This document shows, piece after piece, positions 1 through 59,680 of a stretch of DNA of 59,680 bases. The notes under the pieces were generated by a model. That model worked only from the letters and a program-made list of their open reading frames with translations, was not told the DNA's origin and searched no databases. The stretch covers positions 1-59,680 of IMG/VR virus record IMGVR_UViG_3300044673_000126; one strand, written 5' to 3'. The DNA is from a virus. The position numbers and the translations under genes are program-made. Numbering within the stretch: position 1 is the stretch's first letter; each line of letters starts with the position of its first letter.

Positions 1-243
1 ACCGGCTCTTGTCATTGACATCTGCCTCTACGACACCCGGGTCAACCTCGGTCAGGTCGGCGATATCATCGGGACCGTAGATCGCATCCTCAACGACAGA
101 CTCGGCCTCAGCCTCGGCCCCGAAGGCGCGACGGAGCTCCTCCTCTGAGGCGGGGAGCCATGCGAGGGCAGAGCGATTGACTCGCGCAATGATCTCATCG
201 AACCGGAACTCAGCATTTCGGACAGCAGTGTTGCTCTGATTCA
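1..243. repeat. Left copy of terminal overlap
   Basis: This stretch is repeated at 59438-59680 with a single difference (G at 116, A at 59553). The difference falls in the third position of an Ala codon of the giant gene, so it is silent. Because the giant reading frame continues in phase through the overlap, the two ends most likely come from a circular or circularly permuted molecule. A T7-style direct terminal repeat inside a coding frame is less likely but not excluded. Confidence 0.95.
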
Positions 244-3200
244 CAAGCTTGGTGATTTTAGCGAGACTAAGGGTCGCCTGATCAAGCTCTGCCTTGAATG
301 AGGCCTCCTGCTTCTGGAGGACTGCCATCTCTGCGATATACTCCGCAACACGCTTGCCAGATTCGGTTGTCCCAAGGGGCTGGGCCTTGCCAGACACGAG
401 CGCGGTGGTGGTGTGCTTGGATGAGGTGAGCATAGCGTCCGCGCTATTGCGCACACTCTCGATTGCCTCCGCTGCTGAGTCCAGCATCTTGGCGTATGCG
501 CGCGCGAGCCCCTTCATCTCGGCGGAGAGGCCATCGGATGCAGCGGATTCACGCAGCATGCCGGAGATGTCGCGCATAGAGCGCAGGCCGTCCTGCGCAC
601 TGGTGGTCACGGCCCGAGCGGAGTCGAATGTCCCATCCATGGCGAACGCACGGACGCTCGAAGTAAGAAGACTAATGGCCGACACACCAGCAGAGACTGC
701 TGTCCCATCGCCACTCTTTACCAGGGAAGCGATGCCGACGGGAATAGCATCGACGCGGCGCATCGCTGCATTGACGGCCTTAGCTACGCCAGCCATTGCC
801 CCAGGGGCACTCGACCGCGCACCAAAGACTTCCTTGGTCACGAGCTTGGTGAGCTCCATGATGGACGCCCTGGCATTGCCGAGCGCAGCAGATGCAGCCT
901 CATACGCAGTGTTGGCCTTTCCGAGTGCGCGGTGGGCGCGGGCAGATTCCTTCTTCGCCCTCTCGACCTCAGCCTCGGCTGGGGCGACTAGAGCCTCACG
1001 GCTTTCCGCAAGCTGCCGCGCAGCAGCCGTCCTGTCCCCCAGGCCGAGAATGTTACGGATCTCATCGAGCACGCGGACGCTTACATTCTGCTGCCCGCTT
1101 TCGTTGAAGCCCGCAAGGTTGGCATAGTAGCTCTCTGCCAAGCCGAGGGTGGCCTCTGTGAATGCTGCACGGTAAGGTTCGTTCGGGCTAGACAGGAATG
1201 CCCACTTGATGTCGCCAATGATCCCGTCCACATCGAAGGATGCTGCCCGGCGCTCAATGCCGAACCCACCCAGGACCTCGTAGATCGTCTCGCCGATAGC
1301 GTTGGCGATACGGGATGCCTCCTCGCGGGTGGAGGCAAGGGCTCGATTGGCGGCCTTGATGTTCCGCCCTTCACGGACGTTGCCCCGCTCGGCGGCGAAC
1401 ACACGGCGTCCCATGGACCTGGAGATGTAGTCCAGCATCTCCCGGGTGCCCTCGGGTGCGGCCAGGGCTACCGCGTGCATCGCACTAAAGTAGTCCTCCC
1501 GCGCGATGTTCTGAGCCTTCCACGAGTTCATCCACTCGGCCGACACCGTTGGGTCAGTCATAAGGAAGTTGGGCTTCTTCAGGGACTGGAACTCCTTGAC
1601 CGCAGCCTTGTATTTGTCCAGGGCCTCATTCACCTTCTTGGTAAGCGCGGGGTCAACCACCCTGGCAAGGATGGCGTCGTGCAGCGAAGGGAAGAACCCC
1701 TTGTGGAACAGGGTGTCTCCATAGCCTTCTGACGTATGGAGATTGGCCTCAGTGGTCTTGTGCATGGCCGCAGAGAAAGCGCCGGGAAGAGCTGCAATCA
1801 GACCAAGCTGCTCAGTCAGATCACGCACTTCCCTGACCTGCTCTGGACTAAGGACAGCCCCCTCGTCCATCAGCCCACGGTTGAAGGCGCTGATGATGCG
1901 GTCGGCCATACCATCCGCAAGCAGGGCCGTGTTCTCGAACCGAGAGGCGATGACCTTGGTCGCGTAGTCCAGAAGCTCCTGGGTTGCGCGCTCGGACTGG
2001 TTGATGGCCTTGGCGATCTGCTCGATGCTCAGGTAGGACTGAGACATGGAGTCCAGCCCGTGATACATCTTGAGCACAAGCAACTGCATGGGGGTGAGCC
2101 CATCATAGAGCTCCTGCCCGATAGTCTTTGGGTCTCGGATAGTGCTCGCATCGCCACCGAACGGTGCGCGGTTCCACGCATCGCGGATCAGCTCTGGGTT
2201 CAGGCCGAAAGCAATGTCGCGGGCATTGCCGACACCGCTGATGTAATAGCGGCCATTCTCCTGACGCAGGACACCGTCCTGAACAAGGGCCTGGGCAAGC
2301 ACGGCCATATCCTTCGTGGTCATACGCCAACCGCGCTTCACGCCAGGCTTGCTCTTACCCTTCCCGGTCGAGACGTCGTCAGATGGAGCCTCCCGGCCAC
2401 TCGTCTCGGCGTCGATGCGCTCGTTGATCCACTTCATAACAACATCACGGGACCAGACTTGCAGGGGATTGGTAACAGTATCGGTGCCCTTCTTCGCAAT
2501 GACAGACATCCATGCCGACCGCTGCTGATTGGCAAACATGCGCGCGAGCCGATACCCAAGGGTCAATGCCTTGCCCTCAGCCTTGGTGATGTCGAAGGCC
2601 GGTCCCGCCATGGCAGAGCCCTTCGTGTTGTCGGCCTCGGCACTCGGAGCAAGGCTCCGGAGGATGTCCTTGATGGCAGCCACATAGGACGGGTGCTCGA
2701 TGAGAGTGCGGGCATCACGCTCCGCCTCAGCCTCGCCACGGCTTTCCATCTGGGCATTGATACGCGCGCCCAATTTGGATGGACGAGCCTTCTCCTTGTC
2801 CTCCGGGCGTGCATACTCTGCGGCCTGGACGACGGCCTCAAGGATGATTTGTGTCGGGAGCCCGATGGAGTGACCGAAGTCGACGATACCCTTCAGGTTC
2901 TTGTTCATGGCCACGGCCATGCCGGCATTGATGGCGACACCCTCGTCACGGACACCATGAGCGCGGTCTTCGGCAATCTTCTCAAGGATGATCTTGGCTG
3001 CGTCATACATGTGAACGGTCTTCACCCGCGCGGCATACACGGCATCGCGGACAGCCCCCTCAATAGAGGCACGCTCGGACTTACTGAGGTTCATCTGGGC
3101 ATAGGCTGCGCGCGCAGCAATGGCCGTCTCGCCGCGCCACTTGACGGTGGCATTGTAGAGGGCGGCTACCGCACGGGCCATCTTCATGCTCGTGGCACCA

Positions 3201-5857
3201 TGCTTCTTCGCTGCCATCTGGAGGTGCTCTGGCATCCCACCAAGCGTGCGCCCTGGTGCGAAGTTCTTGAGGTAGTCATGGGCCGTCTGAAGGACCCACT
3301 GGCTGATGCCCGTGATCGTCTCGGTGCGTCGGCCGGAGCCAAGGTTCGGCTCACCAAGTTCCTCGGGAGACAGGGCGGAGGCCTGTGCGCTATCTGTCTG
3401 GAGCGGGTTCTCCTGGAACTTGCGGAGTTCCCGTAGCATCGCCCCGTTGCCGGGGGCGAACTTCTCTGCGACTGTCTGCTCTTCTGTAGAGTGGAGCTCC
3501 TTGCGAATGCGCTCCATCTCCTCAGCCCGAATCTGCTCTGCCTTCCAGCCAAGCCTGAGCATAGAGCGGTCCTTCTCCTGCATCAGACCAAGTGCGGCGG
3601 CCGGAGACATCTTGGCGGCGAGCTCATTGTAGGCCGTGAGTGCTGTCTCAAAAGCCTGGGAGCTGAACCGCACAGACGCGGCTCGTGCCCGTCGAGTGAT
3701 CTCCTTCACCGCCTTCTTCTTGGCGGCAGGGTCGAGTTGTCCAAGAGCCTCGATCTCCCCCTTGACCCTGGCCTGCTCTGCGGCCTTCTGCTCTGTGGCC
3801 ATGCGCGCTTCGACAGCCTCATCCACAGCCTTGCTTACCTGAAGCTGCTCGTCGATAGCAGCCCGACGCTGCTGAAGTTCGCTGTGGGCCTCTGGCAGCC
3901 TGGCCACAAGGTCTGGGTGGAGGGCCTCTTCCGTGGGCTCGGCAACCTGGGGGGCCTTCGTCTTCGCCAGGGAGTCGGCATACTCGCGTAGCCGGGTGGC
4001 CTCCTCTGGAAGCAATCCATCCATGAAGTCGCTGGCTGCGGCCTGCACGACCATGTCGCGCCGAGCGGCGAGCAGCTTGTCCGAGATGGGCTTGATGGCC
4101 TGGAGTGCAGCCTGCCCCTCTTCTGAGTTCGCGAACATCGGGTCCTGCAACTTCCGCAACGCGAGTGTGACCTGCGGGAGTGCAGCAGACTCCTCCGCCG
4201 TCAGCCCTGCGGCAGAGCGAAGAGCCTTTGTGATGAGGCCCGGCTCAATGGTATCTCCGACAGAGGCCTCGGCAGCGGACCGAACGGACGCCAATTCCCG
4301 GTATGCACCCTCTGGATCGAAGCTCCTGGCAGGCTTAACGCCGTCACCAGGCTTCACCTCGCGGAGAAGTGGAGCTTCGGGGGCGGCCTTGCGCTCGAAC
4401 GGCTTCGATCCTGCACCGACAATGCCACCTGTAATGAAGCCACCGAGGAACTCAGCGAAGGCCTCCTGGGAGAAGGCAGCCTTGCGGAAGTCCTCCCATG
4501 TGTTCTTCTCTGGATTGGCGGACATCTGGCTAATGATACGCTGGGCATACTCCTCGAAGCCCTCACCGAAGGCGTCGAGGGCGTGCTCCCCAACGTGCTT
4601 GATGCCCAACTTCTCGGCCAGAGCCAGGGCCTTCGATGTCCCCTCCTTGCCGAACTTGGCCACAGCCGTCTTCGCAAGGGCGCGCTCGGCGGCAGCAGCA
4701 GCCTCATTGGCACCAGCCTTCTTGAAGGTGGACATCATCAAGCGGCCATCGGCGAAATTGTTCGTTACCCCAAGCAAGGCCATGTTCCCAGCCAGGGTGT
4801 TTGTATATGCGCTGCCAGCCGCGGCATCAGGGTCCATCCCCTTCTGGATGGCGTTGATCCGCGCCTCGCTCGCGGCGCTCTGCGCCTCGCTCATGGCCTC
4901 TGGGAGAGAGGCAAGAACACGAGAGGCCAGCCCCGACAGGTCGACTGACATAACTCGCTTGGTAATAGGGTTGGTGAGGAGGATCTCGCCAGCACCCTCA
5001 GTTGCGCCGGCCGCGGCGCCGCCCACCATACCGCCAGACGCGACGAGTGGAATCATCTGGAAGATGTTATACGGGGCATCAGCAAGAACGCCCTTGGCCT
5101 TGCCCATCATGGACCCGTCATCATAGATCCCGGCGAAGGACGCGGACTGCTGGAGGCGCTTTGCCTCGGCATTCGCGTCGGCCATCATGCCCGTGATGGG
5201 ATCGGTGGGGCCAACAGAACGGAATGAGCGATCAGCCAGGACCTGCCCTGGGTCCATGCCCTGCTCGTGACGCTCAGTCAGCTTCCTGTCGAGATACCGG
5301 AACGCCGCCCCAGATGGGTTGAGTGGGCTACCAGCGAGTGAGATGAGGCTACGCCCACGCGTCCTGGCAACCTCCTCCCCGAGGCCGAGTCCCTGGCTCA
5401 GAATGCCACCCATCACACCACGGCCCGCGCGTCGGATCTCAGGCAATCCGCCATCCGTCTGGTCCGGGTCGTTAATGTCCTTGATATATTCGCCCTGGTA
5501 ATACTTCTCTCGCTCGACGCCCGCCTGCTTGGTCATGGCGTTGGCTCGGCGGATGAGCTGGGCATGCTGCCCTGTCGGGTCAGCCTTCGCCCGGTTAATG
5601 AACTCAGCAACTTCAGGCTGGGTCAGGGTCATGCCTGGGTTGCGACGCGCCAGGTCTGCCGCGGAGATGGCATACTCTGCCAGCTCTGCATCCGTGATCG
5701 GCGACTGCGGGTCCACTGCTGTGACATAGCTTACGCCAGGCGCACCTGGGGCAGTCGGCTGTGGTTTGGGATTGGACAAGGCAAGCGCCTCTTGCAGGCT
5801 CATGCCCTGTCCAAAGATTCCTTCATACCCACGGAGGCCGGGGTCCTGATCTGCCAT
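1..5857 (-). CDS. Giant polyvalent virion protein, N-terminal 1,952 residues
   Basis: The ATG at 5857 follows a good ribosome site (GGAG, 7 nt upstream). The frame is open to base 1 and continues in phase at 59437 down to a stop at 54111, giving 3,727 residues. This N-terminal half is Ala/Glu/Arg-rich and mostly predicted helical, with long coiled-coil-like stretches and a Gly/Ala-rich hydrophobic patch near residues 245-275. I recognise no catalytic motif in it. It sits directly after two ejection-type proteins and before the lysis genes, the usual place of giant injected phage proteins. N4-type virion RNA polymerase was considered because of size and position, but the T7-like polymerase motifs are not visible. 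Injection with the DNA is inference. Confidence 0.9.
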   Translation of the reverse strand, partial: MADQDPGLRGYEGIFGQGMSLQEALALSNPKPQPTAPGAPGVSYVTAVDPQSPITDAELAEYAISAADLARRNPGMTLTQPEVAEFINRAKADPTGQHAQLIRRANAMTKQAGVEREKYYQGEYIKDINDPDQTDGGLPEIRRAGRGVMGGILSQGLGLGEEVARTRGRSLISLAGSPLNPSGAAFRYLDRKLTERHEQGMDPGQVLADRSFRSVGPTDPITGMMADANAEAKRLQQSASFAGIYDDGSMMGKAKGVLADAPYNIFQMIPLVASGGMVGGAAAGATEGAGEILLTNPITKRVMSVDLSGLASRVLASLPEAMSEAQSAASEARINAIQKGMDPDAAAGSAYTNTLAGNMALLGVTNNFADGRLMMSTFKKAGANEAAAAAERALAKTAVAKFGKEGTSKALALAEKLGIKHVGEHALDAFGEGFEEYAQRIISQMSANPEKNTWEDFRKAAFSQEAFAEFLGGFITGGIVGAGSKPFERKAAPEAPLLREVKPGDGVKPARSFDPEGAYRELASVRSAAEASVGDTIEPGLITKALRSAAGLTAEESAALPQVTLALRKLQDPMFANSEEGQAALQAIKPISDKLLAARRDMVVQAAASDFMDGLLPEEATRLREYADSLAKTKAPQVAEPTEEALHPDLVARLPEAHSELQQRRAAIDEQLQVSKAVDEAVEARMATEQKAAEQARVKGEIEALGQLDPAAKKKAVKEITRRARAASVRFSSQAFETALTAYNELAAKMSPAAALGLMQEKDRSMLRLGWKAEQIRAEEMERIRKELHSTEEQTVAEKFAPGNGAMLRELRKFQENPLQTDSAQASALSPEELGEPNLGSGRRTETITGISQWVLQTAHDYLKNFAPGRTLGGMPEHLQMAAKKHGATSMKMARAVAALYNATVKWRGETAIAARAAYAQMNLSKSERASIEGAVRDAVYAARVKTVHMYDAAKIILEKIAEDRAHGVRDEGVAINAGMAVAMNKNLKGIVDFGHSIGLPTQIILEAVVQAAEYARPEDKEKARPSKLGARINAQMESRGEAEAERDARTLIEHPSYVAAIKDILRSLAPSAEADNTKGSAMAGPAFDITKAEGKALTLGYRLARMFANQQRSAWMSVIAKKGTDTVTNPLQVWSRDVVMKWINERIDAETSGREAPSDDVSTGKGKSKPGVKRGWRMTTKDMAVLAQALVQDGVLRQENGRYYISGVGNARDIAFGLNPELIRDAWNRAPFGGDASTIRDPKTIGQELYDGLTPMQLLVLKMYHGLDSMSQSYLSIEQIAKAINQSERATQELLDYATKVIASRFENTALLADGMADRIISAFNRGLMDEGAVLSPEQVREVRDLTEQLGLIAALPGAFSAAMHKTTEANLHTSEGYGDTLFHKGFFPSLHDAILARVVDPALTKKVNEALDKYKAAVKEFQSLKKPNFLMTDPTVSAEWMNSWKAQNIAREDYFSAMHAVALAAPEGTREMLDYISRSMGRRVFAAERGNVREGRNIKAANRALASTREEASRIANAIGETIYEVLGGFGIERRAASFDVDGIIGDIKWAFLSSPNEPYRAAFTEATLGLAESYYANLAGFNESGQQNVSVRVLDEIRNILGLGDRTAAARQLAESREALVAPAEAEVERAKKESARAHRALGKANTAYEAASAALGNARASIMELTKLVTKEVFGARSSAPGAMAGVAKAVNAAMRRVDAIPVGIASLVKSGDGTAVSAGVSAISLLTSSVRAFAMDGTFDSARAVTTSAQDGLRSMRDISGMLRESAASDGLSAEMKGLARAYAKMLDSAAEAIESVRNSADAMLTSSKHTTTALVSGKAQPLGTTESGKRVAEYIAEMAVLQKQEASFKAELDQATLSLAKITKLVNQSNTAVRNAEFRFDEIIARVNRSALAWLPASEEELRRAFGAEAEAESVVEDAIYGPDDIADLTEVDPGVVEADVNDKSR

Positions 5858-5886: not shown

Positions 5887-7422
5887 TTACCGCGACTTGC
5901 CAAAGGGAGGTGCAGTCACCGGCTGTGTCGACGGGAGAACACCACGCCCGCCCACCGCGCCAGACGAGCGGCCAACCCTGACACCGCTGCTCGCCTTGGT
6001 CTCTCCGGCGCGCTCTGCACTCCGAGCAGCCTCCTGCGCATCTGGCATACGGTAGGCTGTCCCGAGGTCGAAGTTGGGCGGCAACACCGGGGTCCACCCC
6101 CTGGAGAGCAGGGCCTTGACATTATCTGGCTGGACCTCTGGATCACTCCAGTGCCCAGTGTTGACGACAACTGGCGCAGCCCCCTGAAGGCCTGCGGGAG
6201 GCTGCATGACTGCTACCCACCCGGGCTTGACACCCTGGGCCTTAGCAAGCCGCTTGAGCCGATCCATATAGGCGGGCTGCGTCTCCCCGTCCAGGCGAGG
6301 GTTGACCATCGACATCACGCGCGGGACATTGTCAGCGTTCATGTGGAGAGAGTTGTCATCTGGCCGCCAATCAATCTTGGTGGCCTCGTCCATATTCCCC
6401 TTGGGGTAGATGGACCGGCGACGCTCGACACCAACAACCTCATTTGTCTTTGGGTCCACCTTCGGGTAGACGTCGTATCCCTGGAACGCAGCATCGCGAC
6501 GCTGCTCCTCGACAGCGATCTCCCGATCCAGCTTGGCAATGTCTACGCTATTGACATTCCCATTGTTAAGCCCCTTCGACAGTGCCTCCTGAGCAATCTT
6601 CCGACGCCCCTCCAGCTTGTCGATCCGCTTCTGGAACTCCGCAGCCTGCTCCTTGCGCTGTTCAAAGTTGAGCCTCTGGATGGCGATCTCGTTGCTCTTC
6701 CGACCGACAGCCGCCTGTGCACTCAGGGCACGCTCGTTCTGGGCATACGTCCGCTCGCGGTCTCCAAGCGCCATCAGCCCTTGAGACCCCAAGAACGCGC
6801 CAGCCCGCATAACATCAAGGGTGTTGGTCCTGACCTTCCCATCCGAACCCTTCTCGCGATAGTAGACCTGAGTGAGCCCCTCCTTGCTCTTCTCTGGCAT
6901 GAGGCCCACATCAATGATGTCGGGTGGGACAAACGTGGGGTCCTTCTTGGCCCGCTCCTGCATCTGCGTCCGTGCGAGATTGGTTAGCGCGGACGTATCG
7001 CCACGGTAAAACGAACGAACGAGTTCCCGATCCTGGGCCGCTGACAAAGCTTCGCCGTAGTTGAGATCGAAGGACTTCTTGTTCATCTCGAAAGACTGCT
7101 TGTTCTGCTCCTGCCCCTGGAGAACACCCCGTAGATTCAGTGCCTCCTGCCCAGCGCCAGCACCGGCCATACCCTGATAGAGCCCAGGCTCGTCCAGGTT
7201 GCCCGCGAGATACTGAGCAGTCAGATCACCGACACTGTCCTCCTTCTGCCACATCTGCTTCTGGCGTCCGAACATGGTCTGACGGTTCTCGAACTCTGCG
7301 CGGAGGCGAGCCTGCTCCTCGTCCTCGCGTGTCCGGCGACGCCCAATCTCCTCACCCTGAAGGATTCCTGGGCCCAGTCGGCTCAGGGCACCACCAAGGC
7401 CGATCCCGACGTTGTAGTCCAT
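5887..7422 (-). CDS. Putative internal virion (ejection) protein, 511 aa
   Basis: A 511-residue protein rich in Gln, Arg, Glu and Ala. It has long heptad-like stretches (around residues 30-60 and 225-290) and a disordered Ser/Gly/Pro-rich C-terminus. The ATG at 7422 overlaps the stop of the upstream gene by one base, so the two are translationally coupled, and it lies 29 nt before the giant gene. Order and composition match the middle ejection protein of podophages (gp15-like position), but I see no sequence signature that proves this. The role is inferred from context. Confidence 0.75.
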   Translation of the reverse strand: MDYNVGIGLGGALSRLGPGILQGEEIGRRRTREDEEQARLRAEFENRQTMFGRQKQMWQKEDSVGDLTAQYLAGNLDEPGLYQGMAGAGAGQEALNLRGVLQGQEQNKQSFEMNKKSFDLNYGEALSAAQDRELVRSFYRGDTSALTNLARTQMQERAKKDPTFVPPDIIDVGLMPEKSKEGLTQVYYREKGSDGKVRTNTLDVMRAGAFLGSQGLMALGDRERTYAQNERALSAQAAVGRKSNEIAIQRLNFEQRKEQAAEFQKRIDKLEGRRKIAQEALSKGLNNGNVNSVDIAKLDREIAVEEQRRDAAFQGYDVYPKVDPKTNEVVGVERRRSIYPKGNMDEATKIDWRPDDNSLHMNADNVPRVMSMVNPRLDGETQPAYMDRLKRLAKAQGVKPGWVAVMQPPAGLQGAAPVVVNTGHWSDPEVQPDNVKALLSRGWTPVLPPNFDLGTAYRMPDAQEAARSAERAGETKASSGVRVGRSSGAVGGRGVLPSTQPVTAPPFGKSR

Positions 7423-8213
7423 TACATCACCCCCTTGGGCAGACCCCAGCTACCGGCTGTCGGCATCAGCCCACCTGACTGTAGGAAGGAGCGGTATGCG
7501 TCTGTTGCTGTGAAAGTGTTTGGGTTGGGGGTCGGGACAGGTCCTGGTGCTGATGGGAGAATACCTGCTCCGAGACCAGCCTTGGGCAGGGTTGGGGCAG
7601 ACGGGGCTGGCGCCGCTGGGCGAGAGCTGTAATACATTGCGGCGTTCATGAGTCCGTTGCCAGCCGCGTTCCACCCATCCTGGGACGCCTGGCGCGCGCG
7701 CTGTGCCTCGTCCCCATAGAAGGAGGCGAGGCCGCGCAACCCCTGGCTGGTGTAGTCTGCTGTCTGGATTGGGTTAAATCGGGACAACAGCCCCATCCGC
7801 AACTGGTCCTTGTTCTGATACTCACCAAGGACGCCGGCAGCCATGGCTCGTGCCCTCGACAGCTCGTTGGTCTGGAGCATGGAGGCTGCCAGACCGGACG
7901 AGACACCGCGTGTCCCGATCATGGTGTTGATGTTGCGGCCAGCATTGCCATACTCGCGCTCGATGTTAGAGCGAAGGATACCCATGCGGAACGGGTCGAT
8001 GCCAGGCGCCTTAGCCTGAGACGCAAGTTGCTCCTCGATGGGCCCGTAGAGCCCTTCCATCCTTTTCTGGACTCGCATACGCTCGTTGAGATCGCGCTCC
8101 AGCAACTGCCGCTGGCCCTCCGCGCTCTTCTTGGCGGTCTTGTTGGCCTGCTTTGCGCTGTTAGCGGAGAGTGCCGCACCACCAACCATTACCCCAGCAG
8201 TCACAAAAGTCAT
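7422..8213 (-). CDS. Putative internal virion (ejection) protein, 263 aa
   Basis: A 263-residue protein. It starts with a short Gly/Ala hydrophobic segment (residues 3-18), followed by a Lys/Glu/Arg-rich helix to about residue 70, an Ala/Ser/Gly-rich middle and a Pro-rich tail. A hydrophobic N-terminus followed by a coiled coil resembles small podophage core proteins of the T7 gp14 kind, and the gene precedes the 511-aa ejection-type protein. No enzyme motif is seen. Family assignment rests on composition and synteny. Confidence 0.7.
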   Translation of the reverse strand: MTFVTAGVMVGGAALSANSAKQANKTAKKSAEGQRQLLERDLNERMRVQKRMEGLYGPIEEQLASQAKAPGIDPFRMGILRSNIEREYGNAGRNINTMIGTRGVSSGLAASMLQTNELSRARAMAAGVLGEYQNKDQLRMGLLSRFNPIQTADYTSQGLRGLASFYGDEAQRARQASQDGWNAAGNGLMNAAMYYSSRPAAPAPSAPTLPKAGLGAGILPSAPGPVPTPNPNTFTATDAYRSFLQSGGLMPTAGSWGLPKGVM

Positions 8214-48380: not shown

Positions 48381-48386
48381 CCTAAC

Positions 48387-48462: not shown

Positions 48463-48473
48463 CGGAGAGTCAC

Positions 48474-48689: not shown

Positions 48690-48692
48690 ACC

Positions 48693-49819: not shown

Positions 49820-49995
49820 TGAAGACCGACAAGAACTACCGACCCTACAATAGCTCCACCCCCATCGACAACGGCAGCATCATGCGTGTCACCCCACACC
49901 CCAAGGCGTGGGCCGGTGACAAAGAACGCTGGATCATCGACACCTGGGATGGTGACTCCATCGTGTGCGTGGAGGTCAGATGCCAAGGGGCCTGA
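49819..49995 (+). CDS. Hypothetical protein, 58 aa
   Basis: The GTG at 49819 overlaps the phosphoesterase stop (TAGTGA). A 58-residue protein (RVTPHPKAWAGDKERWIIDT) whose stop overlaps the next start (TGATG). Unrecognised. Confidence 0.5.
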   Translation: MKTDKNYRPYNSSTPIDNGSIMRVTPHPKAWAGDKERWIIDTWDGDSIVCVEVRCQGA

Positions 49996-50502: not shown

Positions 50503-50630
50503 CGCCACAGCTAACCGGCCCCGCCGGAGAAAGGGAAGAAATGAGGATCGGAGATGTAGCAAATAATCCAGGACTGTTGCCTGGGGGAGAAACACCCAAG
50601 GCGGGGTCCGAGTTGAGCGGAGGGTTGGGC
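50497..50630 (+). repeat. attC site A (134 nt)
   Basis: Cores GCCTAAC (50497-50503) and GTTGGGC (50624-50630). The arm CGGCCCCGCC pairs with GGCGGGG-T-CCG, and GCTAAC with GTTGAGC. The central loop is long (about 75 nt) and holds a ribosome site and an ATG. Confidence 0.85.
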
Positions 50631-50846
50631 GAGGTCTTCAAGATCGAGTACCGGCTGACCCTCGATTTTCAGGCCACCTCGCTTGAGGGCATCAAAGCCC
50701 GCCTTCCGAAGGGAGCCCAGATCCTCGCCATCAACGACCGCGAGTTCGTGTCTTTCTGCGAGGCGTGCGGCAAGCCCATCTGCGAAGGCGACGGGTGGCA
50801 CCAGGCAGAAGATGTTTACCTTTGTCGCCCCTGCGGCGATGAGTAG
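50541..50846 (+). CDS. Zinc-ribbon cassette protein, 101 aa, start uncertain
   Basis: The frame is open from the ATG at 50541 (GGGAAGAA upstream, in the loop of attC A) through the attC 3' arm into cassette 2. The C-terminus (FCEACGKPICEGDGWHQ, YLCRPCGDE) holds a four-Cys zinc ribbon. If cassette 2 was translated alone it would start nearer 50630, but no clear start is seen there. So this protein may be a fusion made by cassette insertion. Unrecognised role. Confidence 0.55.
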   Translation: MRIGDVANNPGLLPGGETPKAGSELSGGLGEVFKIEYRLTLDFQATSLEGIKARLPKGAQILAINDREFVSFCEACGKPICEGDGWHQAEDVYLCRPCGDE

Positions 50847-50847
50847 C

Positions 50848-50908
50848 GCCCAACGCCCGGAGCTAGCTCGGCCCCGCAGGGGTCCGACGCTGAGCGACAT
50901 GGTTAGAC
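50848..50908 (+). repeat. attC site B (61 nt)
   Basis: Cores GCCCAAC (50848-50854) and GTTAGAC (50902-50908). CCCC-GCA-GGGG forms the tip, then an unpaired T and CCGA/TCGG. It directly follows the stop of cassette 2's gene. Confidence 0.85.
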
Positions 50909-50940
50909 CGCGAATAGAAACCAACCAAAGGAGGACCGGC

Positions 50941-51210
50941 ATGAGCGATGCCAACAATTTCACGACCAACCCCGTGCTGCTGGAGGTTGCCGCCGAGCGC
51001 AACCGGCAGGACGGGAAGTGGGGCACGGCGCAGGACGACAAAAATAACCCACTCGACTGGCACGAAATCATCGCCGACTACAACGGGTGGGCACGGCGGA
51101 TGCTCTGCATGGGGAGCATTGACAAGGGGCGTCGGCGACTGATCCAGGTCGCGGCCATCGCTGTGGCCGCCGTGGAAGCACTTGATCGGCGATTCCCGAG
51201 AGCGGTCTAA
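50941..51210 (+). CDS. Cassette protein, 89 aa
   Basis: AAAGGAGG sits upstream of the ATG at 50941, and the stop TAA lies inside the core of attC C. The helical segment LLEVAAERNRQDGKWGTAQ, then LIQVAAIAVAAVEALDRR, matches a small family common in phages and cassettes that resembles MazG-like nucleotide hydrolases in layout. Function not proven. GC content is near that of the phage. Confidence 0.65.
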   Translation: MSDANNFTTNPVLLEVAAERNRQDGKWGTAQDDKNNPLDWHEIIADYNGWARRMLCMGSIDKGRRRLIQVAAIAVAAVEALDRRFPRAV

Positions 51211-51301
51211 CGACTCAAGCGCACCGGCCCTGCCGCAGGTGAGCCACAACCTTTCAAATATCGGACTTGCGGCAGGGTCCGAGTGGAGCGCTGGGTTGAG
51301 C
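51205..51301 (+). repeat. attC site C (97 nt)
   Basis: Cores GTCTAAC (51205-51211) and GTTGAGC (51295-51301). CCCTGCCGCA pairs perfectly with TGCGGCAGGG (10 bp), then an unpaired T and CGG/CCG. Confidence 0.85.
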
Positions 51302-51323
51302 GCAACCTTGAGGGAGAGGCTAA

Positions 51324-51512
51324 GTGAGAATCGAAATACAGAGGAATGAAAGCAGCCTACCAATTATCTATGGAAATGCTATCAACGCATTTACAAAGGG
51401 GCAGATGTATTGCGTCCTCTTCGAGCACAACCAATCGAGAGTGACCCATAAATTCCCACTGTCCTCGATATTCAGGGTTATTGAGGATTACCCAGACAGT
51501 AAGCGGGATTAG
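51324..51512 (+). CDS. AT-richer cassette protein, 62 aa
   Basis: GTG start at 51324 with GGGAG upstream. The 62-residue product (SSLPIIYGNAINAFTKGQMY, ending VIEDYPDSKRD) is unrecognised. Its codons are clearly AT-richer than those of all neighbours, a sign of separate origin. It ends 1 nt before attC D. Confidence 0.6.
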   Translation: MRIEIQRNESSLPIIYGNAINAFTKGQMYCVLFEHNQSRVTHKFPLSSIFRVIEDYPDSKRD

Positions 51513-51513
51513 C

Positions 51514-51572
51514 GCCCAACTTTCGAGCTAACCGGCGCCGTCAGGCGTCCGGGTTGAGCGAGCCGGTTAGCC
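51514..51572 (+). repeat. attC site D (59 nt)
   Basis: Cores GCCCAAC (51514-51520) and GTTAGCC (51566-51572). 59 nt is the classic attC length. CGCC-GTCA-GGCG forms the tip; unpaired T before CCGG. The sixth core base is C rather than a purine, and the next half-site has the matching change. Confidence 0.8.
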
Positions 51573-51601
51573 GAGCCACGACGAAAACAAAAGGAGAAAA
51601 C

Positions 51602-51817
51602 ATGGAAGCAACCTTCAAAGTAAAACTCAAGCCGTTCACTGTCCCGAATTATGTCTTGGTCGATTTGCCCCCCGGCAAACGGGAGGATGGTTTTACGGAA
51701 GGGCCGAAGTATCGTCTTGAGGATCTGGACCCAGTGACACTCGAAGCCATGTGTGACGAGTTCCGCGATGCAGTGTTCGGTAAGGCGAAGAAGTCACGCC
51801 CGCCCATGGTCGGCTAA
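51602..51817 (+). CDS. Cassette protein, 71 aa
   Basis: AAAAGGAG upstream of the ATG at 51602. Unrecognised 71-residue protein (KVKLKPFTVPNYVLVDLPPG, ending AKKSRPPMVG). Its stop lies inside GGCTAAC, the half-site E. Last cassette gene before tRNA-Pro. Confidence 0.6.
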   Translation: MEATFKVKLKPFTVPNYVLVDLPPGKREDGFTEGPKYRLEDLDPVTLEAMCDEFRDAVFGKAKKSRPPMVG

Positions 51818-51818
51818 C
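51812..51818 (+). repeat. attC half-site E (truncated)
   Basis: GGCTAAC is the exact complement of the core that starts this cassette (GTTAGCC), but no partner core or second arm is found downstream. The array therefore ends in a broken attC, probably where cassettes joined phage DNA. Confidence 0.65.
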
Positions 51819-51840
51819 TTTGTACTAGGCGAACTAACAC

Positions 51841-51917
51841 CCGCGAGTAGCTCAGTCTGGTGGAGCGCCTGCTTTGGGGGCAGGGGGTCGCAGGTTCAAA
51901 TCCTGTCTCGCGGACCA
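51841..51917 (+). tRNA. tRNA-Pro (anticodon TGG)
   Basis: 77 nt: acceptor CCGCGAG/CTCGCGG, D-arm GCTC/GAGC with long loop, anticodon stem CCTGC/GCAGG with loop TTTGGGG (TGG, reads CCA), T-arm CAGG/CCTG, encoded ACCA. Directly after the cassette array. Confidence 0.95.
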
Positions 51918-51979: not shown

Positions 51980-52156
51980 ATGGCTAACTGCAACCACTTG
52001 CTTGGAGTTTTCTACTGCTTAGAAGTGGATGAAGAGGCTTCCCTCGCTCACGGGAAGGTTGCCTTCTACGCTAGGCCAGCCCCAGTGATTACCATGTGCC
52101 GGCTATGCAATGCTGTCCTTGATATACTCCCGACCGGTGAGCCAAATGAGCCATGA
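51980..52156 (+). CDS. Cys/His small protein, 58 aa
   Basis: GGAGGG before the ATG at 51980. Cys and His at the start (NCNHLLGVFYCLEV) and CRLC near residue 40 form a likely zinc site. Overlaps the next gene. Unrecognised. Confidence 0.55.
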   Translation: MANCNHLLGVFYCLEVDEEASLAHGKVAFYARPAPVITMCRLCNAVLDILPTGEPNEP

Positions 52157-52682
52157 TCTAGCGCAACACATAGGCCAGCTACTCACATCCAAGGATGTCC
52201 GTGAGGGTATCCTCCTTCTTCAAGACGCCCTGCTGATGCTGCCACAGTCCGACTTCCCGCTCCGCCATTACTACGCGGATGGGCAATACGCCCGCGAGAT
52301 GTTCATCGGTAAGAACAAGCTACTCGTTGGCAAGATCCACAAGCACTCGCACATCAACATCCTGTCTATGGGCGAGTGCACAGTGGTCACTGAGTTCGGG
52401 ATCCAGCGACTCAAGGCCCCGCTCACGTTCGTCTCTCCCAAGATGACGAAGCGTGCGATCTTCGCGCACAAGGACACGCTCTGGACTACGGTCCATGTCA
52501 CGGACAAGACCAACCTCGACGAGATCGAGGATGAAGTAATCGCCAAGGACTACTCCGAGTTCGACGAGATAGCCTTTGAGCGCAACCTATCGTTGGCCTC
52601 TAGGCATTGGCCTGTGGTGAAACGATGTGATGAAACAACGGATGGAGAGGAGCGGACTACACGCAACCAGCCAGAGGCTTGA
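52146..52682 (+). CDS. Cupin-like protein, 178 aa
   Basis: ATG at 52146 overlapping the previous stop. Residues 55-115 (KIHKHSHINILSMGECTVVT, then KRAIFAHKDTLWTTVHVTD) have the His-x-His and spaced strands of a small cupin barrel, a fold seen in many phage accessory proteins of unknown role. Last gene of the right arm, directly before the terminator. Confidence 0.6.
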   Translation: MSHDLAQHIGQLLTSKDVREGILLLQDALLMLPQSDFPLRHYYADGQYAREMFIGKNKLLVGKIHKHSHINILSMGECTVVTEFGIQRLKAPLTFVSPKMTKRAIFAHKDTLWTTVHVTDKTNLDEIEDEVIAKDYSEFDEIAFERNLSLASRHWPVVKRCDETTDGEERTTRNQPEA

Positions 52683-52739: not shown

Positions 52740-53369
52740 CTAAAATAGGGACCTGATTAGGGCGCCGAGGACCACGCCCTTGGCACCACCACGCCACTCG
52801 GCACGGGCGACCTCACGCTGGGCATCAGCGTTCACCTTCGCCACGGCTGCCTGTAGCTGCTGGCGGGCCAGAGACTCATCATCGAAGGCGGCCTTCATGC
52901 CGATGGTCGCCAGCTTGCTCTCTGCCAGGGCAATACGCAGGCTGTCCCTGTCGGCTGTGACCTCTGAGATCAGTTTGTCCTGCTCGGCCACAATCGCTTC
53001 GAGCTTCTCGACAACGGGAGAATCATCTCCCCCAGCACCAGGCTCGGCCCCATCCACAGGCTTGGGCTTCTGCTTGGCCTGCGCCAGCTCTCGCTTGAGG
53101 GTGGCGATGTTGGCCTGTAACTCTTGCTCCTTTGCTGCGTGGGCCTTGGCCTCTGCCTCATGTTTTGCCGACTCCTCTTGGTGCTGGGTTGCGTATGCGG
53201 CCTCTACCTGGGCAGCCCCATGGTGCCCACTCCATGTATCTGTGACGGTAACCCCACGGTTGCATCCACGGGCGGCTGTCACCACCCCATAGGACGTCAG
53301 CGCCGCGAGGATCCCATACAGAAACGTCCTAGCCGGGACCGGTATTTTGCTCCACAGGTTTAGGATCAC
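52740..53369 (-). CDS. i-spanin-like (Rz-like) protein, 209 aa
   Basis: GTG start at 53369. An N-terminal hydrophobic span (about residues 14-32) is followed by a long charged coiled coil (60-195) rich in Ala, Glu and Lys, the layout of Rz-type inner-membrane spanins that bridge to the outer membrane at lysis. It follows holin and endolysin genes. No separate o-spanin gene was recognised. Confidence 0.65.
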   Translation of the reverse strand: MILNLWSKIPVPARTFLYGILAALTSYGVVTAARGCNRGVTVTDTWSGHHGAAQVEAAYATQHQEESAKHEAEAKAHAAKEQELQANIATLKRELAQAKQKPKPVDGAEPGAGGDDSPVVEKLEAIVAEQDKLISEVTADRDSLRIALAESKLATIGMKAAFDDESLARQQLQAAVAKVNADAQREVARAEWRGGAKGVVLGALIRSLF

Positions 53370-53613: not shown

Positions 53614-54111
53614 TCAGGACTCCTGCCAGACTTTGATCAATGGGTATGTCCTGACCTTCCGTCCATTCACATTAACATAGACCTCGCCGCGGATCTGCCG
53701 GCGCGGCTGGCTAGCACTCATCCCAACATGAACGCACCCACGTTCAAGGATGAGCTGGTCGATGAGTCGCATGATGCTCGGTGTTGCTTGTATGGCGGCG
53801 AACAGCGCTTCTACCTTCCCATTCATGGGGTAGATGTCGGCAGCCAGCCCATCACAGTGGGCACTCGTGGAGCTTGCACCAGGAATGGCCGCGTTAAGTG
53901 TGACCCCGCGGAACCCAGAGTGCAGCGACCCACCCTTAACCTTCTCGCTCATGCTCCCAGGCCATAGCTTCTCCGCCAATTCAAACACCATGTCGGCGAC
54001 GGGCATCAGGATGTTGCGGATGTTGGCTTCCTGCTGTGCGCTGGGACGGTTCTGGATCCCCATACGCGCAGCGGTCTCAGAGTATAGGTAGTCTTCGTAG
54101 CTGAACCCCAT
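53614..54111 (-). CDS. M15-type peptidase endolysin, 165 aa
   Basis: ATG at 54111 overlaps the giant gene's stop; a GTG at 54114 is also possible. SGFR at about 67-70, then SAHCDGLAADI at about 85-95 (His and Asp zinc ligands) and ERGCVHVGM near 130 (His ligand) are the signature of M15 D-Ala-D-Ala carboxypeptidase-like endolysins, which cut peptidoglycan cross-links. No signal peptide is visible, so export depends on the holin. Confidence 0.85.
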   Translation of the reverse strand: MGFSYEDYLYSETAARMGIQNRPSAQQEANIRNILMPVADMVFELAEKLWPGSMSEKVKGGSLHSGFRGVTLNAAIPGASSTSAHCDGLAADIYPMNGKVEALFAAIQATPSIMRLIDQLILERGCVHVGMSASQPRRQIRGEVYVNVNGRKVRTYPLIKVWQES

Positions 54112-57100
54112 CACTCACCCCCGCCCATACGCTCCTCGACCAGCGACTCGTTGCGGAGCTCCTCCTCCATGCGCCTCGAACCACTGCCCACGTTCGGGAC
54201 AATGATCATGTCTGGGCGCTTGATGTTGCTCATTGCATCGTTCCATGCCCGGATCTCATTCCAGTTCTTCTCTGTAAGATTCCCGTTTTCAAACGCCTGC
54301 TTGAGCCGCTTGATAGCACTGGAGCGCTCGTCCTTAAGCTGACGGTTCGCGGCGTCCTGCTCATAGATCATGGCAGTCTTCTGTGGCGTCACTCCAATGG
54401 CCTTCGCGGCGCGCTCGGCGGGGGTCATCTGGTAGAACTCCTCTGTCCCGCGCATAGGCTTTCTGCCAGGGGCATGCCGCCCGATCCAGAAGGCATCAAC
54501 CAGGTTGGCTGCTCCGGATGGTGCCGCGATCTGGGCCACACCACCGACATAGTCCCCCTGCTCGATCCTTCTGGACCCACGGCGGAGGCTCTCGACAGCA
54601 CCAGTGTTGGCGCCAAGCGACAGGTTGGCGAGGTTCTCCTGCCAACTCTTGTGCGTGTCCACAGAGACTGGGCCCTCACCCATGCTCAACTGAGCGCCGA
54701 AACCATAGAGCGGCGGGATCAACCCGAAGATGCCGGCCGCGGCGAAGCTGGCTGTGCGTGGGCCAAACTTCTCGCGGACCCACTCAATGTAGTCGCGCTT
54801 GACGTCATGGATCGGGGGCTTCCCGCTGATCCTGGAGAGAAGGTTCCAGATGTATGACATCAGGTCCGCCAGCAAGCCGGCAAGTGGGGGGCCGAAGCTG
54901 CCGCCAAGGAGCATCGCGGCGAGCGCACCGTAGGCAGTGCTCTTCATGGAGGCCACCGTGGCAACGGACGCGTGTCGTCCCTCGGCTTCGAGCCGACGAG
55001 CAGTGATGCCCATGTCAGAGATCCACCCACGCAGCACGTTGATGGGGTAGAGCCGGAACAGGACCACCGTCTTCATGAACGCAGCAGACCGGCCGTTCCC
55101 CTCTGGGTTCCAGATCTTCTCATTGCCGAACCCACGCCCCGTATTGAAGTTGGCGTGCGCCGACTGACGCTGGGCGAACGTCATGATCCGGTTGTAGGCC
55201 TCGTCCTTGGTCATCGCTTCGAGCTGGGCCTTGGTGACATCGCTGTTCCGATACCGCTGGGCGAGCTCCTGGCGGACTTGGGCCTCCAGGTCGCCATAGG
55301 TCAGGCGGGAGTAACCCTCGTCCGAGATGGAGACGTAGCCATACTGCGCCCAGATGCCAGTTTTCTTCCCGGCGCTCTTGGCCCTGGACTCAGTAGCTGC
55401 ACCGACAACGTAGGACACGATGTCTCGGATGCGGTTGAGGTTCTCCCCCTTGTTGGCAACGTAGGTGAGGATATCCTTGGTTCCTTCCTTCGCCTGAGAG
55501 AGCTTAGTGGTGTGCGTCGCTCGGCTGATGTCATTGGCCGCAACATCCTCCACGCCAATCTGCATACCGACGTTCACATCTTTGAAGCTAGAGCCCTGGA
55601 TGACTCGGTGCATGACCTCCTTCACGATGGGCCGCATGCGGTCAGCCTCTTCCTGGGTTGCCCAGATCTTGGAGAAATTCTGGAAAGAGAAGATCTCATC
55701 CATGCGCGCATCAAGCACGGCCCTGTCGATCATAGACAGATCCGCGCCAGGCTTGGCCATCAGCGCCAGTAGCTTCACGGCTGCATTCTCAGAGGCCCTG
55801 ATGAGCGGCTCAGTGTAGCCAGTGTCATACATGGCCATCATGTGGGGGCGGCTGGTTGTGAACTGCTGGAAATACTGCGCGGCGCCAAAGGAGATCTTCG
55901 CCATCAGCGCCTTGTAGGCTGTGAACGTGCGGAGCGCGTTGAATGCACCGACAACGCCATCCGCACTGCGCTGCGGAGCGAATGTCGCAAGTGTGTAGTT
56001 CAGGAGCTGGTCGTAGTCCTTCTGGGAGAGCCCATCGGACACTTCAACATGGCGACGGTAGGCGTTGAGCTCCTCGCGGAGGTCGCCTGCGTAGAGGAGG
56101 GACCCTGCCATGTAGCCGGCGGCCCGGCCGTGCATAGAGAGCGCACCGATGATGTCCTCGGAGTAGCCAGCGGTGTTGTTGCGCGCATACTTCAGGCGCC
56201 CCTTGATGTCGGAGGCGCCGGCCATGTAGCGCAAGTCACGGAGCATCGCGCTACGGGCATCCCCAGAGACGCCACCGGCACGATTGTCGATGATCTCCTG
56301 TAGAACTTCGGTGGTGAGCATGCCACCAGCCATCTTGACGAACTTCAGATGGTCATTGTCGCGGAGCTCGCCGCTGTTGGACTCAACGAATCGCCCCTCG
56401 AAGTGATGCCCGAACTTGATTCGGCCAGCCTCGATGTCCTTGCGGAGCTGTGCCTCGATACGATCCGGACTTCCAACGCGGTCAGCCTCTGCCCACAGCT
56501 TGTTCGCGTGCTGCCGAACCATCTGGTCAATAGCAAGCCCCCGGACATCATCCGGGATCTTTGTCTCGCTGTGGCCGGTATCGACCATGATCATACCGAT
56601 GCGATTGCCGTCGGCATCTACCATGTCGAGCTGGCGCGTGGCCTTCTCGTTGCGGAGCAGGGAGATGAAGACGGGGTTCTTCTGGATGATGGAGCGCAAA
56701 GTGTCTGTCTCATCCTCAAACTCGGATACCTTCTTCTCCAGGGCCATGAACTGCTCGTCAAACTTCTCATCTGCTGGGTCCAGCGCGTTCTGCTCGTCGC
56801 GCAACTGGGCCACCTTCGACATGGCCTCTCGGTCGAGGGCTGCCAGGGTCACCTTCTGGATGCCGCGGATGACGTCAACCACCTTGCGGTAGAGCTTCGA
56901 GCCCTCCTCGTCAAGGCCGTATCGGTTGGCAAGCTCCGCCCCATTGATGACCCGTTCCTGGACGCTGCTGTCCATCAGGGCACGTCCGAGCATGGTATAG
57001 GACTGCCCGTCTGTGTCGCGCAGGGAGGCCAGGGCCTTGAGTGTTGGCTGGAGCCCACCCACGATGGAGTCAGCGGCGTGCCGATACATCAGTGCCAGGT

Positions 57101-59680
57101 GCATGATGCGCGTCTGGTGGTCGGTCTTGAACTGGTGGACAAACTGGAGGAACTTGCGGCCCTCGGCCAGGATGGGGGATCGCCGCGCGCGCGTGGACAG
57201 CCGGTCCTTGGCCCAAGCCATTGTCTTCCCGAGCACATCGTCGATGAGACCGTCCATCTCGCGGAGGTCGATGCCGCTGTTCACATACAGGAGACCGCCA
57301 TCCGCCCCCTTGCCGGCCTTGACGAGCTCACCCTCAAGGCCGTCCTCGAAGTTGATGATGTCCTCGTTGCTAACAGACTCACCACTGACGAAGGCAATCG
57401 GGCCGTCCTCTAATACCTCGGGGTTGCTGGCGTGGAGAACCAGCTCTCCCCCGGCTGTGGCCTGAAGCCTTTGGCTCCGCTCTTCCGGAGTGATATACCC
57501 CGCCTGAGTGACGCCAGAAAGCCACTGTGAGATGTTGCCGTTGATGTCGGACTGGATCCATCCTCGGACTGCGTCCTTGAGGCTTCCGGCATTCCATCCT
57601 TCGCCATCATAGTTCCCCTCCAGCATGTCACTCGCGATGTTGCGGTATCGTTCGGCAATAACCTTCTTGTCCAGGGTGGCGGCCAACCCTTCCAGGCGCT
57701 TGAGCGCAGCATCTCCGGCATACTCATTCCCGGTGGAGTCGTCGATCACAACAAGATCTCCAGACAGCCCACCACGCTTGACCTCTGCGATGACATTCTT
57801 CATGCCGTTCACCAACGCCGTGGCAAAGCCGTCAGAGTAGGTGAGTCTCTCTTCCTGTGCACCACGGACAATGGCACCAGTGATCATGTCGTTAAGGTTC
57901 CGCAGGACATAGACGATGTCAGTTCGTGCACCGGCCTTCTGCGCCTGGGAGACAGCGCTTGCGAGGGTATTGGCCGCGAACGCAGAGGTCTCGTGCATGA
58001 CTGCATAGGTCTCAAGGGCAGCAGAGGACCCCATGAAGGTCGTCTTGCCGGCGCCGTTACCGCCCACCACGATAGCTACGTTCTGCCCGTTACGCGCAGC
58101 CTGACGGAACTGGTGCTCCATCACCCGGTTGAACGCGGCGCCAACACCATGGGGCAGGTTCTCTACCCATGCCAGCGCGCCACCACCCGGATGGATCAGC
58201 TTGTCACGGACAATGTCGAACGAGAAGACGCGCCCACCATGCGTGGCCGGGGTGTTCTTATAGATGCCCCAGAACACGGACGGACGAGACAGCTTCTGGG
58301 CGGCGGCCATGAGCCTGGCCTTACCCTCTGGGGTGAAGTAGCCGGCCCTGTCAGACGCTGGGCTCTGGAGCTCCTGCTGCGTCAAGCTGCGGTTCTCCTC
58401 TGTGCGGCTACCACCATCGGGGTGGCCACCGTCCTTGAACATGGCGGCCATCAACCGGGACGTATAGACGCCGATGCCCTTGGCAAAACCACGGATCTTG
58501 GCAGAGAGCTGGGACACAGTGTTGGATGTATTAGCCTTGATGCGCTCCATCACGGATCTGAATGTTGGGTTCTGCATCCCCAGCTTGTAGCCGAGGTAAG
58601 CGATGCCCGCACCCAGGAGGATGGCTGCACCCTCAGGGCTGGACTGAGACAGGCCCATCACACCAACCAGGTCGACCCCAAGCGCCACGCCAGCGGATGC
58701 GTGCGCACCCTCCCTGGACCCACCAGTGAGAAGGCGCTGTGCTTCCTCCCGGATGCTTGGGTCAGCGTTGCCGGGGCCAACTTCCCGGAGATACATCTGG
58801 ACCTGGTTGTAGATGCGGAGACGATCAGCCTGCCCAAGGTTCTGGGCCTGCGCCTGTCGGATGGCGTCGAGCACTCGGCGACCAGATGCCGCCCGGTCGG
58901 GCTGACCTTCAAGCGTTTCCTCCTGGATGACCGTAGGCTCTTCCTTCGCGCTCTGCTCTTGGAGCACGGCGGCGACAGAGCTTTCACGCTGACTGGCGAG
59001 AGTCTCGATGGCGGCGGCGTCCACCTCGACAGTGTTGATCCTCTTGCCTGTCAATGCCTCGACGGCATGGGTCGCCATCATGTAGTTAAGGCTGGCGTCG
59101 CGCCCAGGGGTAACCGCATCTAGAGCCGCCGAGATGTCAGTGATAGTCGCATCAATGTCGGTGATGTCGCCCTGCAAGAGCCTGGCGTGCTTCGCACTAC
59201 CTGCCAGCTCGGCAAGCGCGGCGATACCAAACTGCATCTTGGTTGTGTCCTCGATGGAGATGCCAGCCGCTTCGGACTCATTGATGAGGGTCTCGATGGC
59301 CTCGTTGGCTGCACGGACGTTCGCACCGGCCGCACCTGGGACGGTGCCCTTGAGTAGGCGCGTGGCGATAGCAGTAAGGGTGCTGGCCGGCAGCCGGATA
59401 CCGCTGGCCTTGATCTCCCTCGCGAGGATGCGGGAGGACCGGCTCTTGTCATTGACATCTGCCTCTACGACACCCGGGTCAACCTCGGTCAGGTCGGCGA
59501 TATCATCGGGACCGTAGATCGCATCCTCAACGACAGACTCGGCCTCAGCCTCAGCCCCGAAGGCGCGACGGAGCTCCTCCTCTGAGGCGGGGAGCCATGC
59601 GAGGGCAGAGCGATTGACTCGCGCAATGATCTCATCGAACCGGAACTCAGCATTTCGGACAGCAGTGTTGCTCTGATTCA
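54111..59680 (-). CDS. Giant polyvalent virion protein, C-terminal 1,857 residues, zeta-toxin-like domain
   Basis: Continuation of the gene that starts at 5857 across the circular joint. Counted on the whole protein, a P-loop GGNGAGKTT lies at about residues 2410-2418, YVLRNLNDMITGAIVRGAQE at about 2460-2480 and VVIDDSTGN at about 2516-2524, the order seen in zeta-toxin-type kinases. A hydrophobic stretch lies near 2200-2240. The C-terminal 500 residues include AKAIGVTPQKTAMIYEQDAA and a membrane-like segment (LLGGSFGPPLAGLLADLMSY), features of large polyvalent proteins. The zeta domain may act in the host cell after injection; this is inference. The window-end cut is artificial. Confidence 0.85.
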   Translation of the reverse strand, partial: NQSNTAVRNAEFRFDEIIARVNRSALAWLPASEEELRRAFGAEAEAESVVEDAIYGPDDIADLTEVDPGVVEADVNDKSRSSRILAREIKASGIRLPASTLTAIATRLLKGTVPGAAGANVRAANEAIETLINESEAAGISIEDTTKMQFGIAALAELAGSAKHARLLQGDITDIDATITDISAALDAVTPGRDASLNYMMATHAVEALTGKRINTVEVDAAAIETLASQRESSVAAVLQEQSAKEEPTVIQEETLEGQPDRAASGRRVLDAIRQAQAQNLGQADRLRIYNQVQMYLREVGPGNADPSIREEAQRLLTGGSREGAHASAGVALGVDLVGVMGLSQSSPEGAAILLGAGIAYLGYKLGMQNPTFRSVMERIKANTSNTVSQLSAKIRGFAKGIGVYTSRLMAAMFKDGGHPDGGSRTEENRSLTQQELQSPASDRAGYFTPEGKARLMAAAQKLSRPSVFWGIYKNTPATHGGRVFSFDIVRDKLIHPGGGALAWVENLPHGVGAAFNRVMEHQFRQAARNGQNVAIVVGGNGAGKTTFMGSSAALETYAVMHETSAFAANTLASAVSQAQKAGARTDIVYVLRNLNDMITGAIVRGAQEERLTYSDGFATALVNGMKNVIAEVKRGGLSGDLVVIDDSTGNEYAGDAALKRLEGLAATLDKKVIAERYRNIASDMLEGNYDGEGWNAGSLKDAVRGWIQSDINGNISQWLSGVTQAGYITPEERSQRLQATAGGELVLHASNPEVLEDGPIAFVSGESVSNEDIINFEDGLEGELVKAGKGADGGLLYVNSGIDLREMDGLIDDVLGKTMAWAKDRLSTRARRSPILAEGRKFLQFVHQFKTDHQTRIMHLALMYRHAADSIVGGLQPTLKALASLRDTDGQSYTMLGRALMDSSVQERVINGAELANRYGLDEEGSKLYRKVVDVIRGIQKVTLAALDREAMSKVAQLRDEQNALDPADEKFDEQFMALEKKVSEFEDETDTLRSIIQKNPVFISLLRNEKATRQLDMVDADGNRIGMIMVDTGHSETKIPDDVRGLAIDQMVRQHANKLWAEADRVGSPDRIEAQLRKDIEAGRIKFGHHFEGRFVESNSGELRDNDHLKFVKMAGGMLTTEVLQEIIDNRAGGVSGDARSAMLRDLRYMAGASDIKGRLKYARNNTAGYSEDIIGALSMHGRAAGYMAGSLLYAGDLREELNAYRRHVEVSDGLSQKDYDQLLNYTLATFAPQRSADGVVGAFNALRTFTAYKALMAKISFGAAQYFQQFTTSRPHMMAMYDTGYTEPLIRASENAAVKLLALMAKPGADLSMIDRAVLDARMDEIFSFQNFSKIWATQEEADRMRPIVKEVMHRVIQGSSFKDVNVGMQIGVEDVAANDISRATHTTKLSQAKEGTKDILTYVANKGENLNRIRDIVSYVVGAATESRAKSAGKKTGIWAQYGYVSISDEGYSRLTYGDLEAQVRQELAQRYRNSDVTKAQLEAMTKDEAYNRIMTFAQRQSAHANFNTGRGFGNEKIWNPEGNGRSAAFMKTVVLFRLYPINVLRGWISDMGITARRLEAEGRHASVATVASMKSTAYGALAAMLLGGSFGPPLAGLLADLMSYIWNLLSRISGKPPIHDVKRDYIEWVREKFGPRTASFAAAGIFGLIPPLYGFGAQLSMGEGPVSVDTHKSWQENLANLSLGANTGAVESLRRGSRRIEQGDYVGGVAQIAAPSGAANLVDAFWIGRHAPGRKPMRGTEEFYQMTPAERAAKAIGVTPQKTAMIYEQDAANRQLKDERSSAIKRLKQAFENGNLTEKNWNEIRAWNDAMSNIKRPDMIIVPNVGSGSRRMEEELRNESLVEERMGGGE
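59438..59680. repeat. Right copy of terminal overlap
   Basis: Same sequence as 1-243 apart from one base (A at 59553, G at 116; silent). It closes the genome at about 59,437 unique bases. Confidence 0.95.

Follow-up and report, generated by a model that had tools for sequence, protein, structure and literature searches.

A giant protein of 3,727 residues is encoded in the window, the 59,680-nucleotide stretch of viral DNA analysed here (IMGVR_UViG_3300044673_000126). In its middle, profile homology and the predicted fold show a zeta-fold P-loop kinase domain. Judged from its sequence, the protein is likely to be ejected into the host with the viral DNA. We consider it probable that it is a giant internal virion protein of the polyvalent type from a podovirus, which would be ejected and whose zeta-fold kinase probably phosphorylates a small host metabolite.

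The window ends cut the gene. Two minus-strand frames, 54111-59678 and 2-5857, contain no stop codons and run to the window ends, which form an exact direct repeat of 243 nt (positions 59438-59680 repeat 1-243); after subtraction of the repeated ends, the unique circle measures 59,437 nt. In a separate IMG/VR record of identical sequence, IMGVR_UViG_3300045051_000289, the giant gene is unbroken and in frame, and its translation of 3,727 residues includes both window halves. The joined gene of 11,184 nt and 3,727 aa that had originally been predicted is borne out by the end repeat and by this uninterrupted copy. The cut at the window ends could by itself suggest that the giant frame arose as an artefact from joining contig ends; since the gene is contiguous in the second record and the overlap of 243 nt is exact, this is refuted unless both assemblies err alike, a coincidence to which we give practically no weight. 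The N-terminal part of the protein (residues 1-1952, ATG at 5857) lies at 1..5857 and the C-terminal part of the same gene (residues 1873-3727 and the stop codon) at 54111..59680, both on the minus strand. For residues n ≥ 1873 the codon starts at window position 59678 - 3(n - 1873). No domain is recognised in the N-terminal part, in agreement with the original prediction: neither Pfam nor PHROG nor NCBIfam matches anything in the first ~1,900 residues.

The giant gene belongs to a minus-strand operon with the order terminase, portal or head-tail adaptor, major head protein, internal virion protein, tail fibre proteins, a 263-aa protein, a 511-aa protein and the giant protein. This places the very large protein in the late virion region, with ejection-type genes on one side and lysis genes on the other. 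The 263-aa protein (7422..8213, minus strand) is a cysteine-free ejection-type protein matching phrog_21132, 'DNA ejection', with E 7e-7. The 511-aa protein directly upstream of the giant (5887..7422, minus strand) is also cysteine-free and likely an ejection protein; its resemblance to gp27 of phage Skulduggery is weak and not significant. Contrary to what had been assumed, the operon continues beyond the giant gene: an endolysin gene (53614..54114, minus strand; phrog_894, E 6e-10; Peptidase_M15_3) overlaps the stop codon of the giant gene and is followed on the same strand by an Rz-like spanin gene (52740..53369; phrog_6197, E 8e-4). Adjoining the lysis genes, and oriented oppositely to the virion operon, is a short tail fibre gene (52110-52682, plus strand; phrog_12032, E 5e-40). 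A neighbouring 231-aa product looked acetyltransferase-like by eye and was left unnamed, as Pfam gave no match even at E 10. Elsewhere in the window, three tRNA genes (Ala-tgc, Thr-tgt, Pro-tgg) lie amid nuclease and phosphoesterase genes (45326-51917), and a glutamine amidotransferase-like gene is overlapped by a 993-aa frame (33919-38384, plus strand) that contains 28 cysteines, matches no family and may be a shadow frame.

The zeta-like kinase domain, delimited by profile, BLASTP and Foldseek/VIA-align, comprises residues ~2345-2560 with a core at 2390-2536 (57615..58262, minus strand). It had been expected at residues 2410-2525; the Walker A motif or P-loop, GGNGAGKT, is indeed found at residues 2411-2418 (58041..58064, minus strand), while the extent is slightly wider, ~2345-2537. 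A Pfam scan of the giant protein gave no family above its cut-off, and hence standard annotation misses the domain. Zeta_toxin (PF06414) reached 14.5 bits against a cut-off of 22.3 (E 0.024), with the match in two collinear weak stretches; five of the six zeta-like relatives that were scanned passed the same cut-off. AAA_30 (E 0.002) and SRP54 (E 0.003) rank ahead of Zeta_toxin, likewise below cut-off, as would be expected if the domain were an ordinary P-loop ATPase of the AAA, SRP54 or ABC type. However, these two matches rest mainly on the P-loop, while a zeta profile spans the whole domain and survives shuffling and masking, and only zeta toxins stand among the best structural matches. We therefore regard an ordinary ATPase as very improbable.

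For this profile, zeta relatives were gathered on viral contigs with a DNA pattern for the LID motif, giving 80 loci, 36 of them with a P-loop 62-71 residues upstream. The profile built from 33 unique phage zeta-like kinases matches residues 2390-2536 with E 1.4e-8, covering positions 3-155 of its 164; the next-best frame reached 0.055. Because the relatives had been selected by two motifs, shuffle and masking controls were run. With both motifs kept, the observed 37.0 bits compare with a best of 22.6 in 1,000 shuffles, and with both masked, the observed 9.2 bits compare with a best of 8.0 in 1,000 shuffles. BLASTP against frames from the zeta-like loci gave E 4e-6, and the alignments reach upstream to residue 2310 or 2345, beyond the selected stretch. 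A P-loop DNA pattern tried as another route to relatives returned SbcC/Rad50-type ATPases only. A search of plasmids with the kinase domain gave nothing usable, and no zeta sequence was annotated in the parts examined of a rhizobial plasmid considered as a source. At least 36 viral contigs (within L030-L107) carry compact zeta-like kinases, some of them in proteins of 1,200-2,900 aa with LPD22, DUF7178 or ddrB-ParB.

The predicted fold points in the same direction. The domain was modelled by single-sequence AlphaFold2 over 194 residues, with a pLDDT of 56 that denotes low confidence. With this model, the top ten Foldseek chains among 350,542 PDB chains were all zeta/PezT (probability 0.95-1.00), none reaching E 0.001. 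In VIA-align, ranks 1-6 were zeta entries with Z 8.1-6.7, and the next entry had Z 5.1; a Z of ~8 is weak by itself, and the argument is that only zeta entries fill the top of the list. An earlier, larger model (347 aa, pLDDT 48) listed zeta toxins with no significant match. Homology, through the profile with its shuffle controls and BLASTP, and predicted fold thus agree on the zeta-like P-loop domain that had been proposed, and the structural match to something other than a zeta-like kinase that would have spoken against it did not appear among the best matches to the model.

Several residues of the active site are kept relative to the zeta relatives, namely the ATP-site lysine Lys2417, Arg2465, and Arg2477 and Arg2483 of the LID segment GAIVRGAQEER (residues 2473-2483; 57846..57878, minus strand; assigned by alignment). 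The two LID arginines are six residues apart, the same spacing as between Arg175 and Arg181 in gonococcal zeta1 (PMC5923241). Judging by these residues, the domain likely handles ATP. Other positions have changed. Glu2435 (57990..57992, minus strand) stands where a catalytic-type aspartate is found in 33 of 33 relatives, an equivalence taken from alignment and not from superposition; Leu2494 replaces a histidine invariant in the same 33; GRxVP, kept by all 33 in columns partly preselected by the search pattern, has become ERLTY; and IDNS has become IDDS. The equivalent aspartate deprotonates the substrate in zeta toxins (PMC5923241, PMC3062530). With the changes Asp to Glu, His to Leu and GRxVP to ERLTY, catalysis could be lost. 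Since the catalytic aspartate is absent and the PF06414 cut-off is missed, the domain is termed zeta-like and not a zeta toxin.

What the kinase would act on is bound up with these exchanges. The original prediction was that it could act on host wall metabolism, zeta toxins being kinases of the UDP-sugars of the cell wall; in view of Glu2435, Leu2494 and ERLTY, zeta toxins cannot serve as a guide to its substrate, and with substrate-side residues altered, UDP-GlcNAc as the classical target becomes uncertain. A classical activity, in which UDP-GlcNAc or UDP-MurNAc is phosphorylated and the wall weakened to aid DNA entry, was proposed for zeta-like domains in polyvalent proteins by Iyer et al. 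2017 (PMC5512222), and it would fit the zeta fold and homology, the kept ATP lysine and the LID arginines with their zeta1-like six-residue spacing. Against it stand the exchange of the catalytic-type aspartate for glutamate and the loss of the histidine and GRxVP retained throughout the relatives; that the aspartate position matters is indicated by PezT D66T, which is inactive (PMC3062530). We consider the classical activity rather unlikely.

The combination of changed substrate-side residues and a kept ATP site would also suit a zeta-fold kinase whose substrate is a different one, such as a compound of NAD type or a nucleotide signal in defence. Zeta-fold NAD kinases exist, and the effector AvrRxo1 is a known NAD kinase; chains of AvrRxo1 are among the structural matches. 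As this reading draws on divergence only, we put it forward tentatively. The loss of several family-invariant residues may alternatively mean that the kinase has decayed and is retained as a structural or ATP-binding module in an ejected protein. The Walker A motif, Arg2465 and both LID arginines are nevertheless kept at low identity, which suggests selection on nucleotide handling and makes such decay doubtful. A bolder idea, which we likewise deem unlikely, is that the kinase has been retargeted to a new small molecule and is delivered at infection within the giant cysteine-free virion protein, for instance disarming a nucleotide- or NAD-based defence.

The case for ejection comes mainly from amino acid composition. 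The giant protein has no cysteine in 3,727 residues, where ~30 would be expected from the 43 cysteines among the 5,263 aa of the phage's remaining structural and packaging ORFs (P ~5e-14 in a simple binomial that takes no account of base composition or relatedness). Cysteine is likewise missing from Skulduggery gp28 (3,695 aa) and from the giant of a further relative, L012 (3,650 aa, 5' end not seen). As positive controls, the ejected proteins T7 gp14/15/16, P22 gp7/20/16 and N4 gp50 together contain a single cysteine in 7,070 aa, compared with 56 in the 9,104 aa of these phages' portal, tail and capsid proteins; individually cysteine-free are T7 gp15 and gp16, P22 gp7, gp20 and gp16, and N4 gp50. 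Small non-ejected proteins without cysteine exist as well (T7 gp9, P22 gp8, N4 gp56), and because some scaffold and head proteins thus lack it too, the absence of cysteine alone is no proof of ejection. The published rationale for cysteine-free giants, given for N4-like polymerases, is that disulfides would impede passage through tail and periplasm (PMC3715699, PMC3915230). With none of ~30 expected cysteines present and the same absence in the proven ejected proteins of T7, P22 and N4, ejection is likely, and the 'injected protein' of the original prediction gains indirect support from this composition, from the order of the genes and from the homology at the C-terminus. In short-tailed phages that are unrelated to one another, ejected proteins stand out by having almost no cysteine (T7, P22 and N4, here L026, L027 and L028; L010; L012; window 5887-8213), a trait that could offer an inexpensive way of flagging ejected phage proteins genome-wide. 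Such a marker had been remarked on for N4-like polymerases; here it is put into numbers, and it applies to T7, P22 and three giants of polyvalent type.

The C-terminal homology concerns residues 3408-3676 (54267..55073, minus strand), a module common to the giant proteins of the Pseudomonas phages Skulduggery and Itty13. It aligns with the C-terminal end of the Itty13 protein at 27% identity (pairwise E 7e-9) and with that of Skulduggery at a pairwise E of 2e-5, and a C-terminal profile of three relatives matches the giant protein with E 2e-5 to 1.5e-4 among 1,373 reading frames. Searching both halves by tblastn against 50,697 phage genomes gave no match at E 0.01; the C-terminal relatives surfaced only once the E value was relaxed to 0.1 or beyond, after which pairwise comparison and a profile confirmed them. 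The related-locus search found only the identical contig with single proteins and one extra relative, L012, with alignments, while a search of genome contigs found no further relatives. In the Itty13 record (L009 42-1934, NC_070969) the end of the record probably interrupts the giant gene as well, the annotated stretch being only 631 codons. By hhalign, the resemblance of the N-terminal part to Skulduggery is not significant.

The remaining domains of these relatives differ from those of the window protein. The Skulduggery giant carries SLT transglycosylase, helicase, methylase and LPD39 domains and the L012 giant ART-PolyVal, LPD3, helicase, methylase and LPD39. None of these was found in the window protein with Pfam, PHROG, NCBIfam and an LPD39 profile, and an LPD38 profile gave no match either. 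The window protein has one recognised enzymatic domain and the shared C-terminal module, the remainder being without match. As no match to the Skulduggery and L012 domains was found despite the shared C-terminus, the C-terminal module is common and the payload varies. The payload of such giant proteins can switch wholly, between methylase-helicase, ADP-ribosyltransferase and zeta-like kinase, with the C-terminal module retained.

For the ejected metabolite kinase that we favour, the following course of infection can be envisaged. The giant protein would be expressed late and packaged alongside the two smaller cysteine-free ejection proteins. Together with the DNA it would then be threaded into the host by way of portal and tail, in an extended form eased by its lack of cysteine, and refold. 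In the new host, the kinase domain would probably bind ATP and phosphorylate a small metabolite, a nucleotide-sugar or other nucleotide-linked compound, which may bias the metabolism or the defences of the host as infection begins. Residues 2345-2560 offer a bounded, expressible domain with which to approach this giant protein.

Among known systems, the giant virion RNA polymerase of N4 type is similar in its size of ~3,500 aa, its presence in the virion and its freedom from cysteine, but Pfam, PHROG and NCBIfam give no match to an RNA polymerase in the window protein. With the zeta/PezT toxins (PF06414; 6epg, 2p5t, 1gvn) the domain shares the predicted fold and the nucleotide-side residues; it differs in the missing catalytic-type aspartate and in being part of a giant instead of a free toxin, and no antitoxin gene was recognised. 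Zeta-like kinases in phage polyvalent proteins were already described in 2017 (Iyer et al., PMC5512222). Those compared here (L034, L048, L065, L074, L097) likewise combine a compact zeta domain, P-loop and LID arginines with a large phage protein, whereas the window kinase differs in the three substitutions of its active site, in the absence of adjoining LPD22, ddrB-ParB or DUF7178, and in its giant scaffold. Judged by sequence, a strongly diverged zeta-like kinase in a giant phage protein is thus of a kind already known, and its residue losses are new among the sampled relatives. The closest likeness is to Skulduggery gp28 and the Itty13 giant, the 'DarB-like antirestriction' proteins, which agree with the window protein in size, pre-lysis position, lack of cysteine and C-terminal module. 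Gene order is also alike, with virion genes, three cysteine-free structural or hypothetical genes, the 3,695-aa giant, lysozyme and spanin in Skulduggery. Neither half of the DarB methylase-helicase dyad was found in the window protein with Pfam, PHROG or NCBIfam, the same test showing both in Skulduggery; unlike the Skulduggery giant, the window protein carries a zeta-like kinase.
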